Shown: positions 2,296 through 43,064 of the stretch, one piece after another
Position numbering within the stretch: position 1 is the first letter of the stretch
How the letters are laid out: the number at the start of each line of letters is the position of its first letter
Assembly: GCF_963675165.1 (NCBI RefSeq)
Contig: NC_087390.1
Coordinates: 3,548,001-3,612,000 of the forward strand
Direction of reading: 5' to 3'
Length of the DNA: 64,000 bases
Origin: Halichondria panicea
Lineage: Eukaryota; Porifera; Demospongiae; Suberitida; Halichondriidae
Program-made: the position numbers and the translations under genes
Notes under the pieces: generated by a model
What the model saw: the letters and a program-made list of their open reading frames with translations, nothing else
The model's database searches: none
What the model was told of the DNA's origin: nothing

Positions 2296-3615
2296 TCAGA
2301 CCGATAGCACCCGGCCTTCTTGAGTTGCTAGGTCAATAGTGCCAGTGTCTAAGGCCTTCCATGGTGTGGTGGTGGTGAATGACTTCCTAGAGCCTCTGAT
2401 GCACATAATCTCTGATTTTATGAGGGAGAAATTTAGCCTACACCTCATCCAATTCAGAGTTGTGCTGTATGTTTTGTCCTGTTTCTCTGCCAGCATTGAA
2501 GCTAGTTTCTTGTAGACAATATCTGCAGCCGGACCCATACCTCCAGCAGCAGAGAAAACCAAAGGCGTAAACGATCCATGTTCGACTTCTCTTACACGCT
2601 GTTCATAAGCTCTCTTCTTCTCCATCTCGTTTCTTCTGTAGCTCTGGGCCATGGTGGAGCGGCGATAGGTAGGTGCGTACGGGTTGAAGACCCTGACATC
2701 AAAAAATGCACTCTGTCTATCGTTGCTCCAGAAGCTCTGGGCCACAACATCAAGGCGAGCCCCATCCTCGCGGTTGGTTGTCCTAAGTTGGAACTGCTCT
2801 TCCGTCACAGGCTGTAAGGTTGGTTCAATACCCACATCTGGACATACTTCGCTCATAAGATTTGCTGTGATGTTGCGTATTTCATTATGTCTTATTGTTG
2901 GAAATCCTCCCCTAGAGCAGCTGAGTGCATGCTCTACTGTGAAGTGAAGTCCACAGACACAGTGAGAGGGTAGGTTCTGAGGCCACCAGCCGTACCTGAG
3001 GCAAAGAGCATCTCTGAAGGCTCCCTTGTGTAGCATGAAACCATGCTCTGCAATAGGCAGCGCTGTTATCCAGCTTGAGGTACCTTTCTCTGAGCATATT
3101 CCAACCATTTTTTTCAAATTGTTTGGTAGTTCTTCATTTAGCTCACTTGCTGTCCTGGCTTCCATCTGTCGGCGGAATTTTTTGGCATTGTTCCTCAGTC
3201 TGGCTTGCTCTTGCTTCATTGTAGATTCGTATATATCGGATTGGTCAAGTATCAGGCTGACTAGTGGTGCTGAGATTGACATGCTCATCGTGAACTGACC
3301 AGGGCTTGTTTCACACGGGTTTGCTATACCAAGTCCCCCATGGCGGGCTGGGAGTGCCATTATCTGTCTTTCCAGATCACCAAAGGCATTCTGTCCAGTC
3401 AATTTTGGCAAAAAGACTGTCCTTATTGTTTCTTCTAGTGGCTTAAGGAGGTTAGCAATGCCTGGAGTGGTTCGAGCCAAATATGTCCATTTACTAGTGA
3501 AACCATGTGTGAAAGCAGCGAAAGCACTGTGAGGTTGGGTGGTGGCTATTGAAGAGAGGCTTTTCAGTTCTTCTACCCAGGTGTCAACCTTCTGTTGTTC
3601 CTGAATGCAAACTGC
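2296..3615 (-). pseudogene. Retroelement ORF, C-terminal part with zinc-finger and restriction-like nuclease motifs
   Basis: One frame is open for about 440 codons from just after an in-frame TAA (3616-3618) down to a stop at 2296; no ATG opens it, so the 5' end is missing. In order it shows FTSKWTYLARTTPG and LPARHGGLGIANP, phrases I recognise from the region after the palm/thumb of reverse transcriptases in many invertebrate retroelement proteins. Next come a Cys/His cluster (CVCG, FTVEHALSC, then a His) and a segment with RLDVVAQSFW and FFDVRVFNP. The last resembles a PD-(D/E)XK restriction-like endonuclease of non-LTR elements. An A/T-rich 3' tail runs to about 2185, where similarity to the receptor flank resumes. 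I infer a 5'-truncated retrotransposon insertion. The exact clade is not resolved. Confidence 0.75.
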
Positions 3616-34749: not shown

Positions 34750-35145
34750 TCATCGGGGTCGAGCTAGTATTCTCATCTGAAACAAGTATGCAACTAACAG
34801 TGGCCTAATAAACTCCTCCTGAAGAACTGGAATTTCTATTCCTTTCTTAACAGTTACAAGGTCTTCAATAGTTCCTCCAAATCCTTCTTCATCAGTAAGA
34901 ACAGAAATAGCTGCTGCACCTCCAGATTCATATTCCTTGGCAAGTGAGAGAGCATTCAGATTGACGTTAATATCTCCTTTAGAGGGTGACTTTCTCTTGA
35001 TCTCACCGATCACAGATAGTCCTGGTTTTTGGAGAGCTTTCAAGAAAGAATTTGAGTTAGTTCTCTCTTGGTATGGTACACATATCCCCTTTATTTCTTC
35101 TTTCTTTTTAGAAACAATTCTCAAGAAAATTGTCCATTTTCCCAT
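34750..35145 (-). pseudogene. trpC: Fragment of bacterial-type indole-3-glycerol-phosphate synthase
   Basis: The frame reads IVSKKKEEI near residue 10, GEIKRKSPSKG near 47, GGAAAISVLTDE near 75 and PVLQEEF near 106. These are the N-terminal helix, the first catalytic strand (Glu and Lys of EIKR, phosphate-binding SPSKG), the second strand, and the third strand of TrpC, a TIM-barrel enzyme of tryptophan synthesis. In the family the third strand normally has PVLRKDF with the general-acid lysine; here Glu replaces it. Similarity stops after about 110 of the usual 250-260 residues, where a stop follows. Animals lack this pathway, so horizontal transfer from a bacterium is inferred. It lies 76 bp from the CNTLN stop, convergent with it, and its start codon overlaps a 10-bp-arm palindrome (35144-35174). 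Probably a dead fragment. Confidence 0.8.
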
Positions 35146-35219
35146 AGATACTATATGTAATTTATAGTATCTATGATTTTCCTACAGACAGCTATTATGC
35201 CAGGTGCGTATGCTATGGA

Positions 35220-36435
35220 GTCGTAAATTAGTATATCTAGCTAGATCTGTTGCGGTATAGACTAGCAAGCCTTCACTGTTGCACGGCGAACAGTAGACTT
35301 GTCAAACTCCGTGTAGAGACTTGTGTTTGCACAGTACCGCACTTATTCGATTTAAAGCGACACTTTTACAAAGCCAGATGTCGTTTCTTTTGGAGGTTGA
35401 AAAATTATGTTGAAGTCCTGGTGTCGCATATTTAGAGGGTCACATCTATAAACTGGAGGTTACTCGATTATAGGCCGCTTAAATTACATTGTTTTTTGCG
35501 GCCTAGAAATCGAGGCTGAGGTTTGACCTCTATTTAGGATGCGACATAAAAAAATAATTGTGAACGTCGCAGTCGCTACTTTTAGAGGTCAGAAAATTGG
35601 GAAAGATCGAGGGTGTCGCATATTTGGAGGGTCGCTTTAAATTGAATAAGTACAGTAATCCATATAGCGGGAAATTTTCACGTTTTCAAGGGCAGAGCAG
35701 TAACGCGAAAATTAAAACCGAGATAAACTCCTGCGCACTGGTATTTCACATGCAAAGCTATTGGTGGGTGTGGTTTCCTGGCATTGAACCGCGAATATTA
35801 GAACCCACGAAAATGTTTGCTGAGGGCTCTGGATCCAAATAGCCAAATAGCGAAAATGTGCACCCCCTTTTCTTGCTTGAATACCAGTGATCATTGTAGA
35901 TTAGATCTGTGTAGTCTAGCTCATTCTTAATACTCAGCTTGCAACTTCCAAGGAAGTGGGTCTTAAAGCGGCACACAATATAATTTATAATAATTATGCT
36001 TACAATCAATTTGCATAGCATGCGGAATAGCAGACCATCTAGTTTTAGACTTTTTTGAAGCTGAAGAGCAAGATTACTTACAAGAAAAACAAAAACAAAA
36101 ATTATACAAAAAGCATAAGTCAAATCCATTGGTGGGATGGTCTTGATGGCGCGACCACGGGAGGACCGGGAGCCTCGAACACATTGTATAGCAGATCTGA
36201 GCAGACTATATACTTATTGAATGTATAGTACTTCATGCATTCTACTATGTACCATAATTATAGCAGAAATGTTCGTGGGGGGTTCTAATATTCGCGTTTC
36301 AATGCCAGGAACCACACCCACCAATAGGTTTCCATGTGAAATACGAGTGCGTGGGAGTTTAATCCCAGTTTTAATTTTCGCGCTGTCTGCCCTCGAAAAA
36401 CGCTAAATTTTGCACCTCACAAAAATTTCCGTATG
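35220..36435. mobile_element. Cluster of inverted-repeat elements between trpC fragment and MORN2
   Basis: 35220-35335 is a solo end of the TAGACTCGCAAGCC family. 35337-35655 is a TA-flanked element with ends CCGCACTTATTCGATTTAAA and CTGTACTTATTCAATTTAAA (inverted); it carries a GCCTCGATTTCTAGGCC-type hairpin (35463-35517). 35663-35825 and 36258-36432 are inverse arms (AATTTTCGCG, CCACCAATAG) of a further element. Confidence 0.7.
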
Positions 36436-36580
36436 TCATTATAGTTGATATAGCAACCATGACCAAAAAGCTACACTGATTGGACTATAAAACAGTTGAC
36501 CTAAGTATTTTCTTAAATATCATTACGGTATAATTATACATATTATAATTATATACATTTTTACCGTATCTTGTTAATAG

Positions 36581-39127
36581 GAAAGTCTCGGGCTAAGCAG
36601 CGTGAATCGAAAGCTGGAGGTGAGGTCATTTGTGTGCCGTCATTGTGTACGGTAACGCTAGTTGCTAACAATTACACAATTACATGACTGTGTACATGCA
36701 GGCACTAAGAAGCTGACGGACAGTTATATATTCCCTGATGGTGAAAAATACGGTAAAAGGATGATGTAATTGTTGTGGGACGTGTAGCCTCGAATCCAGG
36801 CCGATTAAATTCGGCCTGGAATATAATCTTTTTTATTGCATGTGTAATTAATCATAGGCGTGGTCCATACGCGCCCATGTACTATCTACTAGGTATATGA
36901 AGCTTTGTATGTAGCCTAGCTAGCTAGCTGTGGCCCTCTATGGTATTGTCGAGAAGGCTTGCACACTAGTCTGAAACCAGAAGAGGCTCTCATCTACCTC
37001 TATAATGGTTGGATGGTCGTGTGATGTTTTGAACTTGGTTTCTGTACAAATGAGAGCTTCTTCTGGCTTTAGACTAGTGTGCAAGCCTTCTCGACAACAC
37101 CATAGAGGGCCACAGCTAGCTAGCAAGCCTTCTCGACAACGCAATAGAGAGCATAAGCCACAATTTCACAGGAGACAAGTATTTGTTAAAATTAATACGG
37201 AAAGAAACTAGTAACAAACTAGTTTACGGTATAATTTTACAAAGGTTTACTATAAAGTATACGAGTTACCCGATTCTGGGTAACTCAGTTCGCGCATGTG
37301 CACTATCACCCATGCAATAGAGACCAGGCCGTATTTTAATCGGCCTGGTCTCGTGGCTATGGGATGTGTTGAAATGTAGAATCACAATCACTTGATGAAT
37401 GGGAATCTAACTCTAAGAGCATACATATATCAGTCATTCAATCGAAATAATTAGTTTCTAGTACTACGTAGGTTCATGCTGTTCCAACTGCATAATTATG
37501 TACGTTGGTAGCTTTTTCGAGTTTCTATGTCAACCAGCACTATCTTTAGCATGAAATTTCGGCTTTTCCGTTGTTATACCTTGTGACGTACTGCTACAAG
37601 TATATAGACTAGAGGATGAGTACCTCATATACACTTCATTTCCCCAGTTGGAGAGTATGTTGACTATGGCAATGGTGTGATCGAAAGGAATGGTGAGGGT
37701 ACACACAGCTTTGCCAGTGGACTAGTGTACAAGGGAACCTGGAGCAAAGACAAAATGAATGGAACTGGTACAATACGATATTGAAGTGCATGAAAGTGCA
37801 ACGGTCTACATGTTATGTGTACTAACATGATGCTTATATGATACTTGCTCAAGATAATTATGATTACTGATAAAGTATCAATTAGTGCTGTCGTCTCTGG
37901 TCATTCTCTCTGTTTCTTCAGGTGAGCTGATTCATCCCAATGACTGCACATACAAGGTGTACAATACTACTCACTGTAGCTACAGGAAGACACTGCGCAG
38001 TGCAGGAAATTTGTAACGAAATGCATTCATGATAAATTAATAACAACATCTGTGGTTCCTATGAGATTCTGGCATACTGATACTGATACTGATTTGATTA
38101 ACTGTTAGTGTACGCTGATTTACACACACACACGTACAACTATAGGGCACATTTATTGAGAATGAGTACCATGGCAGTGGTGTATTTCAGTGGCCGGATG
38201 GATCTATGTTCACTGGACAATTCACCAGCAACAGGTACAGTCATAGACTCATAGTCGCAGTGGACGGTATTAATTTTAAAGTATCTGCTATGCACCTATG
38301 CAAGCTATAATAATTAATAACATGCCACGAAAAGTGTTGTATAAAAAAATCGTCTGTACATGTTGCAACGAACCCCCAGCATATAAAGTGCAAAGGCCAG
38401 TCCATCCCAAGAGCAATTGGAGTGTGCACAAAATTAATAACCCGTCAACAAAATCTATCATACTTACATGTACGTACGTCACCACCTAATTTATTTCATT
38501 GGTCAACAGCTGCAAGATAACATACAGCCCCAGGGCATGCACAGACTTCGAGGTGTTTTTCTAGTTTTTTCATTAATTGTCCAAGAAAAGTAAGTAAACA
38601 GAAATGAGCCATGCTTGACGGTACTAAGACTCTAAAGCGACGGCAGAACCACGGAAGCTGCTCTACAACAAGGTGGCTACAGTCTGACGAGAAGAACTTG
38701 CAACTGCGGCGAGGGACGTCAAACACAATGCTTGGACCTAGAGCATCTGTAGAAGAAGTTGTGTTGCTTAATTAGCTTTTTGACGGTTGCAAAATCCGGC
38801 TAGTCTCATTCTTTTTGCGGTATGCACCGTGCATTGAGTGTTGCTAGCCAGTAGGAGAGGTCCTTTTATAGAGCTGCGGTAACGTGGTATAAGTCAGATA
38901 TACCACACCTACTCGGAAGATAAGCACCCTGTATATCCTCCTCGTATAGGTGTGGTATATCCAATTTGGAGTGTTGTTCCTCTGTATTAATTCAGCCATA
39001 ATTATGATGCTATATATCATTTTGTAGAATTAGTGGCAATGGTGAATTTAAGGACAGTGCAGGGAGAACCTGGATTGGAGAGTGTTCTATGGACTCTAAG
39101 ACTCTACTAAATTTAAAGCTGTCATAA
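36581..39127 (+). CDS. MORN2: MORN-repeat protein, MORN2-like
   Basis: Six exons in consistent phase: 36581-36619, 36702-36752, 37648-37767, 37922-37956, 38146-38234 and 39028-39127 (434 nt, 144 codons). A first exon with the start codon, ending in phase 1, was not found upstream. MORN repeats are visible: DGEKYVGEYVDYGNGVIERN, LVYKGTWSKDKMNGTGELI, TYKGTFIENEYHGSGVFQWP, then MFTGQFTSNRISGNGEF and TWIGE. The end LLNLKLS matches the way vertebrate MORN2 ends, which makes orthology likely. MORN2 proteins are small, found in ciliated cells, testis and phagocytic cells; the role here is inferred only from the family. It is tail-to-tail with receptor B1, 524 bp from stop to stop. Its last exon and intron were copied beside A2 and B2. 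Confidence 0.88.
36785..36826. repeat. GCCTCGAATCCAGGCCG hairpin micro-repeat in MORN2 intron
   Basis: AGCCTCGAATCCAGGCCGA and TCGGCCTGGAAT pair around a short A/T loop. A near relative with the sequence GAGACCAGGCCG lies at 37318-37357. Confidence 0.7.
36919..37123. repeat. Strong hairpin with arms of about 75 bp in MORN2 intron
   Basis: AGCTGTGGCCCTCTATGGTA and GAGAAGGCTTGCACACTAGT on the left recur inverted on the right with few mismatches around a loop of about 55 bp. Part of the right arm (CCTTCTCGACAAC) is repeated once more just after it. Confidence 0.8.
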
Positions 39128-39651: not shown

Positions 39652-42600
39652 TCAGTTTTGACGTTGGTCAAGGTTATTAGGGAGTAATGGCTGCTGTTCA
39701 GGATTTCCCATTGGACGACGACGTTTATAGCAACAACAGTACACCAACACCACGAGTATCGCAGTTATGATGATCAGTAATAGTACACTACTGACACCAA
39801 CCAAGGAAAATGTGATCGACTCATAAGGAGGGCCTGCACAAACAGAGTGTTATAATTACGGTTACCTTATCATAAGCAGTCAGTCCACTATAATCACAAT
39901 AATTATTATAATTTATTATGTATGTTAATGATGGTCATGATCATTACGTTACGAACCTTATTCATAATAATAGTGTTACATGCATAATCGCATGTTGTCC
40001 TATTATTCACTGTGATTCGTACAGTGATTAATCACGTATCAGTAATTGCACGTCGTCAAGGCAGTAATTGCACATCGTCATTAACGATGTGCAATATTAT
40101 TACTGCCTTGACGACCGAACGTTCGAATAACGGCCGCGGCTAATTTTTTACTGAAACTGCAGCTAAAAATGTCCTGCATCACAAACGATTAACAATCAAT
40201 AGCATGGCTACTCATGCAATAAGGGATTAATAGCACTCATAATAAGCACTGGCAAGGTTAATAGCACTCGGCCACGCCTTGTTACTCGTGCTATTAATCC
40301 CATATTGCACTCTTAGCCATACTACTAATTATGCACAGAGAGCAGCTACATGTGTACATGTACCGGTATGTGTACATTGAACATGTATACATAAGAGTGA
40401 CATATAATTATTATTATGTACAAAGTCATCACTTTGCTTCGTGCAAATAATTATTTACATATGACCATTGTTGTATGGAGTGAATGACTACTGATACAAT
40501 ACTGATACAATATTGATCTGTCAGCTCACCTGCACAACTGTTAGGTTTCCGATAATCTGAGATCTGACACAACTCTTTGTCTCCTTTTGAATAATATTTC
40601 ATATCCTCCTTGTTTAGATCAAAAACTGTAGTATATCAGAGCAATATAAAATTATTTGTATAGAAAATGGTTAGATGTGAACTACTGGGTATTATAGCTA
40701 GCATGACAATTAATTAGCTTACCGAGCAGCCTTCATAATAATCACTCGTATTAATTTTGTGTTTGTTTTTATACTCAAGCATGTATGTCATGATTGTAAC
40801 GGTATATACAAGTACTCAATATTACATGGTCAGCCCAAGTTAGCTTTACGTACATGCATGTCTGAACATGTATTTGTACTTGTGGTAGAAACACAGCACA
40901 AAACAAATCCTAAACAATGTCTCTGATTGAGGCTATTAAGATAATTAACTTACAGCATTGCAAAACGATACCTTCCTCAAACAAACAAGTATCTACGCTA
41001 CACTGGTGAGTAGGCTTGGTGAAACAACAGCTGAAACAAGGCTCAGAAGAGTCTATACAATCTCTCGTGTTGTTGCTGGTAAGCCAAGCATTGTGGTAGA
41101 GATTTGCGCTGTGTGTGTGTGCAAGGTGTGCATACACGTACATGTATAAGTAGGGTGGTTATGAGGGGAAATCACTACATTATCATTAATGCATGTTTCA
41201 ATTAATGCTATGGTTTGACCCTGTATTAATTGGGTTAAGAGCAACAACAACTAGCTCCTCCAAAACTTGGGCTACACATCAACATGCATTGTACAGGGTA
41301 TGGATTATCGCACTCAAATTAAGTCGCACTACAATACTTACTGAGGATAAGAAGTGTTTGAATTCTTTGCTGTGGTGATATGGTTAGGGTTTGCTTCAGT
41401 GTACCCCATCTGCCTGCATACTGAGTCAGCAGCATTGCGTGTGAATGGTTGTGTTTTGTTCTGAGCAATAACACCCCACGTATCGTGCATGTATATGAGT
41501 ACCAGTCCAAAGGAAACTTGATAACCTGCAGCGAGCTGTCCTGTAAACACATACATGTAGGTCATTGTTGTACGCCTTTCAATTTGTTACTGTTCCCCAA
41601 AAAGGGTTCATAAATTAATATGCGATTTTTAACAGACATAAGAGGTAAGTATTTAACGGGAGGAGTCCTAGTTTGGATACCATACTGGTTAATAACTAGC
41701 TCTTATACCTGGAGCAGTATTCTCGGGATGTAGTAGTAACACTTGTCCAATGTAACCTTCATTTGGCACCTTGTTCCAGCTTTCATCAGGTCCTAACATG
41801 TGCATGAATGTCAGTAAGCATGCAGGCACAGATATAACTTTATTACCTACCCGCAATACATTCAAGGCACATATACACATACATCAATCTTTGAAGTTCA
41901 GTATTGTAAGCAATATTTCGTGGATAATACTTTCTTGGTTGCTGCTTGCACTGCAGGTAAAGGTAGGCAAGGTCGCTTCATTCGTGGGTAAATATTCATG
42001 GCCAGACCTTCAACCACAAATGTTTTGCCCCACGAAAATTACCCGCTATACGGTATATACCGTATAGCGGGTAATTTATTTTCGAGGCACCAAATTTTTG
42101 CGAATTGCTAAAACTAAACATTTCACAGATATTGTTTTTGAGGATAGAGGTTCAAATAACTACATGCACTTACAGTAGAGAGGTCTTTGGAAGTAAACAA
42201 TGATTTTCGAGGTTTGAGATAAAACTGCAAAAATGTTGTGCCAAAATAACCCACTGTCTATGATAGTGTTCCTCGGCCCTTTGGCATAACTATGTTGAGC
42301 TAGAGCTCTTTCACTGAGTAATTGGTACCAGTATACATGTACATGTGCATTGAAACAATCATTACCACAGTGTAAGTAGAGTTTAGAACAGCCGAGTTCA
42401 TTTGGATTTGGTGGGATGGTGTTGCATCTCAGAATATTTGTTTTTTTGCTGTCACACATCACCTTGGTGAACCAGGGGTCAATACCATTCTTATCCCAGT
42501 GTACCCTAAAGTGCATAGGAAAATTTCTGCACAAACAAGTGACAACTTTTCATTAAATAGCCATAAATAATTATATGCCCTCCCCCCCCACTACACACAC

Positions 42601-42878
42601 AGTGACACATACACCGTATAATGGATATAACTTTAAAATAAATAATTATGAGAAAGTCATTGCAACATGATCATCTTACTTTATACTAGAATATTCCACA
42701 TCATATCCAAGTTGTTGGCACATGGTGGTAACAGTTGCTTTATCAGCCTCATCATCACATATGGTCCCCCATTTAGCTGGCTGAAGGTTGCCTATGTAGT
42801 ACACCAGCAATAGAGGCGTCCCTTGAAAACTGTTATTCCGGTCTAGGCATAAGTCCCCTATTGATGGGTTCGCTTTTT
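39652..42878 (-). CDS. SRCR receptor B1, type I membrane protein, exons 1-7 intact
   Basis: Exons 42878-42680, 42505-42366, 41792-41709, 41525-41342, 41108-40954, 40625-40530 and 39833-39652 have the same lengths as A1 except the last. Exons 1-5 are near-identical to A1 (two SRCR domains with WGTICDDEAD, DPWFTKVMC, VCRQMGYT, FEDGIVLQC). The tail exon is clearly diverged: helix VLLLIIITAILVVLVYCCCY, basic KRRR, then EQQPLLPNN. EQQPLL fits the acidic dileucine pattern [DE]XXXL[LI] used for endocytic sorting; A1 lacks it. No stop or frameshift was found. The signal-peptide exon is again missing from my model. Intron 6 holds an insertion of about 330 bp absent from A1. Confidence 0.87.
39990..40320. 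repeat. B1-specific insertion made of two hairpins
   Basis: The first hairpin pairs GTCGTCAAGGCAGTAATTGC (40052) with its inverse near 40110. The second pairs TGCAATAAGGGATTAATAGC (40217) with GCTATTAATCCCATATTGCA near 40308. The corresponding place in A1 (near 4390) is contiguous. Confidence 0.75.
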
Positions 42879-43064
42879 CTGCAAAAATAACACCAGTAGT
42901 ACAGTGCTGAGATGTACGTACACACTAGTAGGAGCACTATAATTATATACACGGTCTCAAAATAATAGATGCACACTAAACTGCATGAAGGTCAAAACGT
43001 AGCCGCCCTGTACAGTAGACTCGATTCCAATCCGCTTGAAAATACGTACCTAAGCGGCCTGGTA

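Follow-up and report, generated by a model that had tools for sequence, protein, structure and literature searches.

Intact trpC, probably acquired from a chlamydia, and its truncated duplicate on one animal contig

On the minus strand of the window (the whole 64,000-nucleotide stretch that was analyzed), positions 34750-35181 hold a 143-amino-acid open frame with no internal stops. The frame corresponds to the first ~45% of TrpC, indole-3-glycerol phosphate synthase (IGPS). Specifically, it matches the IGPS profile PF00218 at E 1.6e-24 with 86.9 bits, above the curated cut-off of 27 for membership in the family, and IGPS chains are its top solved relatives (E 8.6e-18). Judged by these scores, the match to the profile is far beyond chance. 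The TrpC motifs named in the original prediction, EIKRKSPSKG and GGAAAISVLTDE, are both present. The prediction also held that the second half of TrpC is missing and that Glu occupies the position of the general-acid Lys, and both statements are borne out. Homology spans only 34806-35142 and covers positions 18-118 of 254 in the profile, short of a complete (beta-alpha)8 barrel, and the catalytic Lys of the xKxF motif, Lys108, is replaced by Glu. The codon, checked in the letters, is GAG (34816-34818, minus strand); the aligned codon in the intact copy described below is AAA.

Alignment and PF00218 together define this feature, trpC' (34806-35142, minus strand), as a partial duplicate of the 5' part of an intact trpC, retaining about 111 of 250 codons. 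The original trpC start codon lies at 35135-35137 on the minus strand, as placed by alignment and translation and checked in the letters, and a 2-bp deletion falls 19 bases past it, at about 35118/35119. When translation is read from the original ATG, the deletion leads to a stop after nine residues; the 143-amino-acid frame is entered from upstream of that codon. At the other end, the alignment with intact trpC stops at about 34806, which we take as the duplication breakpoint. The remaining tail of the frame (34750-34805, minus strand) is non-homologous to trpC, and the parent gene runs on to codon 250. A perfect inverted repeat with 13-bp arms and a 7-bp loop (35143-35175) lies between the start codons of trpC' and of the neighboring gene, MORN'. 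It has one copy in the window and sits in the shortened gap between the two genes.

When the entire genome (131.5 Mb, 39 contigs) is searched in six frames with PF00218, two places only emerge, the window fragment and an intact trpC. The intact gene occupies C14:3527509-3528261 (PF00218 match C14:3527524-3528231), on the window's own 6.5-Mb contig and on the fragment's strand, separated from the fragment by 54,544 bases. It is intronless and stop-free and encodes a full-length protein of 250 amino acids that matches the IGPS profile from position 7 to 254 of 254 with 255.5 bits. Aligned to solved IGPS enzymes over residues 15-248 or 32-247, the protein keeps the catalytic positions. The fragment matches the 5' part of this gene (L003 4429-4767) at 325 of 339 aligned positions (96%), the differences being 12 substitutions and the one 2-bp deletion. 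All 12 substitutions between the trpC copies (34806-35142) are transitions, versus 73 of 102 in the flanking blocks.

The direction of some of these changes can be assigned. The intact copy has Lys at residue 108, as do all five of the nearest chlamydial proteins, so the change to Glu belongs to the fragment. Codons 26 and 97 show the reverse: there the fragment has the residue of all five chlamydial proteins (Arg and Val, respectively), so it is the parent that changed. The earlier idea of horizontal transfer followed by decay divides in two: transfer stands, with a chlamydial source most likely from the tree described below, and decay of the transferred gene does not, since a complete copy with its catalytic residues kept lies 54.5 kb away. 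By the comparison of the two copies, what has decayed is a partial duplicate of the transferred gene, while the transferred gene itself is intact. That the fragment is instead what decay has left of the transferred gene, no functional copy surviving, we regard as extremely improbable. The fragment is indeed broken as described, but the intact, stop-free, full-length copy on the same contig already refutes this reading unless that copy is an assembly error, and the homology of both copies runs on into the neighboring gene.

At the parent locus, trpC lies head-to-head with a MORN-repeat gene, 177 bp separating the two start codons, of which the MORN one is putative. On its other side, trpC lies tail-to-tail with intron-split exons of weak similarity to the C-terminal domain of squalene-hopene cyclase. 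Three of four tested stretches of these cyclase-like exons match, at E 0.0007-0.008, under Pfam's cut-off; by eye, we take the gene to be lanosterol synthase. The window repeats the parent's order: trpC', 59 bp, and then a second copy of the head-to-head MORN-repeat gene. This copy, MORN' (35197-39127, plus strand, putative start 35197), is supported by collinear blocks with L003 and L131 and by MORN matches, of which those at 37620-37781 and 38146-38307 are above Pfam's cut-off. Collinear blocks between the window and the parent locus run through the MORN gene to about 39836, and further blocks, at 40450-42916, are 70-82% identical to sequence lying downstream of the parent locus.

The trpC'-MORN' block is itself bracketed by a tandem duplication. 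Unit A (4393-34665) ends just before the block and matches 40326-64000, on to L130:6284; unit B (40326-64000, continuing to about C14:3618284) starts just after the block. A look past the window for a further trpC fragment gave none: unit B homology ends at L130:6284, and L003 and L130 share no match of at least 150 bp. The ~30-kb tandem duplication holds SRCR-like receptor exons that score below Pfam's cut-off. Identity between units A and B starts at 97.1% (first 10 kb), rises to 99.8% in the 13 kb that follow, and is 99.0% and 93.6% past the window; given this unevenness, the copies may have been partly homogenized. Within the window there is also a 439-amino-acid open frame at 2296-3615 on the minus strand with no Pfam matches, which by eye presumably resembles part of a retroelement protein.

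Because trpC' sits at the edge of the duplicated block that carries the MORN gene, the duplication breakpoint most likely fell inside trpC. A duplicated block that starts inside trpC in turn explains why half of the gene is missing and only the first ~111 codons are in the new copy. The order of the duplication events we infer from these limits. As read from the sequence, the window feature is a duplication-breakpoint pseudogene, predicted to be unable by itself to make an active enzyme.

Could the fragment nonetheless have acquired a role? The original prediction had offered a remnant with a new use as an alternative to decay, and such a use would require the short frame, begun at a new upstream ATG, to specify a partial-barrel protein or a coding exon. 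The 143-amino-acid open frame has survived, and the fragment shows just one indel. The flanks predict 8.4 (P 0.002), or 4.2 with constraint on the parent alone (P 0.08); these expectations come from flanks that aligned and may be biased for that reason. There are also fewer non-synonymous than synonymous differences per site between trpC' and its parent (six of each; pN 0.024, pS 0.080). Yet the catalytic lysine and the second half of the barrel are gone, the original start is out of frame, and substitutions stand at the same level in the fragment (12 of 337, 3.56%) as in the aligned flanking blocks (102 of 2,735, 3.73%). A low pN/pS ratio, moreover, is also expected with only the parent constrained, and it here rests on six and six changes. 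Counts this small agree with neutrality of the fragment next to a parent under constraint, and would also tolerate weak constraint on the fragment. We judge a new use very improbable: it finds no positive support, though the indel shortage leaves room for weak constraint. In itself the fragment is unremarkable debris, but the intact bacterial gene is a genuine acquisition and of interest.

The source of the intact gene was sought among bacterial genomes. A scan of genome_contigs (84,980 species) with intact TrpC gave at least 482 relatives from 589 candidate stretches. Among the best 80 of these, the closest is the Simkaniaceae metagenome-assembled genome M30B1, at 55% identity, with the other 79 at 40-50%; the best non-chlamydial rows among the matches listed are at 41-50%. 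A search of Chlamydiota matched intact TrpC in 40 of 232 genomes at E 0.001 or better. In five of the 232 (M30B1, that is L006, and L088-L091), identity is 58-63%; in the other matching genomes it is 53% or lower. M30B1 appears in a paper on a meromictic lake (PMC8382752).

Phylogeny places the animal protein in the same company. Loci were cut for 30 of the 41 Chlamydiota matches, leaving out the 11 weakest. The first tree held 111 TrpC rows, with L086, L087, L092, L113, L119, and L120 excluded as repeats of genomes already included, and a careful tree was reduced to 59 of these: the animal row, the full set of 30 chlamydial rows, and 28 others picked by hand. In the 59-row tree, animal TrpC and the five Simkaniaceae-like rows form a six-row clade with 100/100 support, and animal TrpC groups with all 30 chlamydial rows at 99/95. 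Approximately unbiased (AU) tests reject neither a position of animal TrpC just outside the 30 chlamydial rows (p 0.385) nor one with the other 25 chlamydial rows (p 0.35). We thus leave the exact donor group unfixed and claim a chlamydial source. From this tree, in which one animal genome stands with no other eukaryotic TrpC among the rows, the most likely source of trpC is chlamydial, from the Simkaniaceae-like cluster.

Two other origins have to be weighed. One is vertical inheritance of trpC from a protist ancestor of animals. Late tryptophan-pathway genes are kept in choanoflagellates, according to PMC4339202, and the trees hold no eukaryotic TrpC besides the animal row; but the protein groups with a single Chlamydiota cluster at 100/100 and 58-63% identity, and we consider vertical descent very unlikely. 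The other is bacterial contamination or a chimeric assembly. Such bacteria do occur in sponges and other marine animals (PMC9666466). Against this stand two diverged copies in one 6.5-Mb contig, each by genes that recur at both places, and the absence of any N in the 9-10 kb stretches read. The original prediction had reasoned that near-identity to contaminant bacteria would speak against transfer; no such near-identity is found among the matches listed, the closest bacterial one reaching just 63%. The gene lies in that contig beside intron-split cyclase-like and MORN-repeat exons, which are host genes. We find contamination scarcely credible at all, and a bacterium-to-animal transfer is the reading that we carry forward.

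Intact trpC is not the only step of tryptophan synthesis in this genome. The one match to phosphoribosylanthranilate isomerase (PRAI), trpF, lies on contig 17 at C17:2437863-2438462 (L005 4346-5065, minus strand; E 9.2e-41), in a full-length, stop-free frame of 239 amino acids that aligns to solved PRAI enzymes. Its product is 29-32% identical to the TrpFs encoded beside trpC in L006, L008, and L088-L091 and up to 39% identical to those of other bacteria. In a viral_contigs scan for trpF, three pattern matches were returned, with no relative among them. A quick tree of 104 rows (again with L086, L087, L092, L113, L119, and L120 excluded as genome repeats) gives a Rhizobium plasmid row as sister to animal TrpF with support 96. 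A careful tree of 57 of the 104 rows, in which 12 were barred (10 flagged as long or of odd composition, two by choice) and others thinned by hand, has no well-supported set that holds the animal row, and the Rhizobium plasmid row is outside its five nearest. The TrpF branch is very long (2.24), and a test fails to reject TrpF as a neighbor of the 26 chlamydial TrpF rows taken together (p 0.263). Vertical inheritance of trpF is possible. A shared operon origin of trpC and trpF was also considered: a tree in which TrpF joins the five Simkaniaceae-like rows can be rejected (p 0.034).

A complete pathway, with trpE, trpD, trpB, and trpA besides trpC and trpF, is not found. Profile searches of the whole genome gave no matches for trpA (PF00290), trpB (TIGR00263, TIGR01415), trpD (PF00591, TIGR01245), or the trpE N-terminal domain (PF04715), negatives that leave room for a gene concealed in masked stretches or gaps. 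Applied as a control, this method recovers kynureninase as nine exon-sized pieces on contig 9 (C9:6171148-6175992). Each piece is below the model's cut-off, and the model also matches in nine of 14 control genomes; the strongest piece nevertheless aligns with solved kynureninases at E 1e-36. Stretches of the kynureninase profile repeat, which suggests two copies side by side. Since an exon-split kynureninase is detected, the method does not as a rule overlook short exons. Kynureninase can release anthranilate, which immediately precedes PRA in the pathway.

Taken as a whole, we hold it very probable that a chlamydial trpC was acquired and kept intact as a host gene, and that the window fragment is a pseudogene made by duplication. 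The history would run as follows. An animal ancestor would have taken up trpC from a Simkaniaceae-like chlamydia, an event that the well-supported tree, with its one animal genome, points to. It would then have settled as a stable host gene without introns, head-to-head with a MORN-repeat gene, the state that is seen directly today. Later, to go by the limits of homology, a local duplication would have copied a block from inside trpC through the MORN gene. The new copy would have kept the first ~111 codons and subsequently lost 2 bp past the start codon and the catalytic lysine, losses that are seen directly. To judge from its conserved residues and open frame, intact TrpC most likely still works as an IGPS, turning CdRP into indole-3-glycerol phosphate (IGP). 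On the same grounds, host TrpF, converting PRA to CdRP, could form with TrpC a two-step segment from PRA to IGP. The notion, which we put forward tentatively and think rather doubtful, is that the host runs a middle segment of the pathway: TrpF and chlamydial TrpC would make IGP, anthranilate would come from the host's own kynureninase, and the ends of the pathway would be contributed by symbionts or by unrecognized host enzymes, such that kynurenine is recycled to tryptophan or indole products.

A suspected dead fragment has thus turned into evidence for an intact gene, probably chlamydial, in an animal nuclear genome, accompanied by a second intact step of the same pathway, trpF, of separate origin. 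What now calls for explanation is the retention of trpC and trpF by an animal. Gene content, with the SRCR-like exons below Pfam's cut-off, and the small genome suggest that this animal is a sponge. Sponge-associated Simkaniaceae are reported to encode synthesis of aromatic amino acids, tryptophan among them, more frequently than related lineages (PMC9666466); if the host is indeed a sponge, donor and recipient are plausible partners, and aromatic amino-acid exchange in the holobiont becomes testable gene by gene. Among the titles and abstract openings listed in searches of the open literature, none reports a transfer of trpC or trpF to an animal, and the main text of PMC4784904, on prokaryotic genes in Amphimedon, contains none of the five tryptophan-related terms looked for.

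Three known systems offer comparisons. The closest is the TrpC of the Simkaniaceae-like Chlamydiota (L006, L088-L091), which clusters with the animal protein at 100/100 and 58-63% identity and shares its catalytic Lys. In these bacteria, the gene lies between trpD and trpF (L006, L088, L090; the trpD being what we take, by eye, the neighboring gene to be), whereas the animal's trpC is alone among host genes and has a second, truncated copy. Transfers of bacterial amino-acid synthesis genes into, for example, whiteflies and other sap-feeding insects (PMC4607527, PMC5157087) likewise place an intact biosynthetic gene in an animal genome, with bacteria that have the pathway alongside. Unlike those cases, the probable donor here is chlamydial, and the pathway lacks steps both before and after those retained. 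Finally, the fragment resembles the pseudogenes left at the edges of tandem and segmental duplications, in that its truncation falls together with the end of a duplicated block that runs through the neighboring gene; it differs from them in that the truncated gene is a bacterial acquisition.
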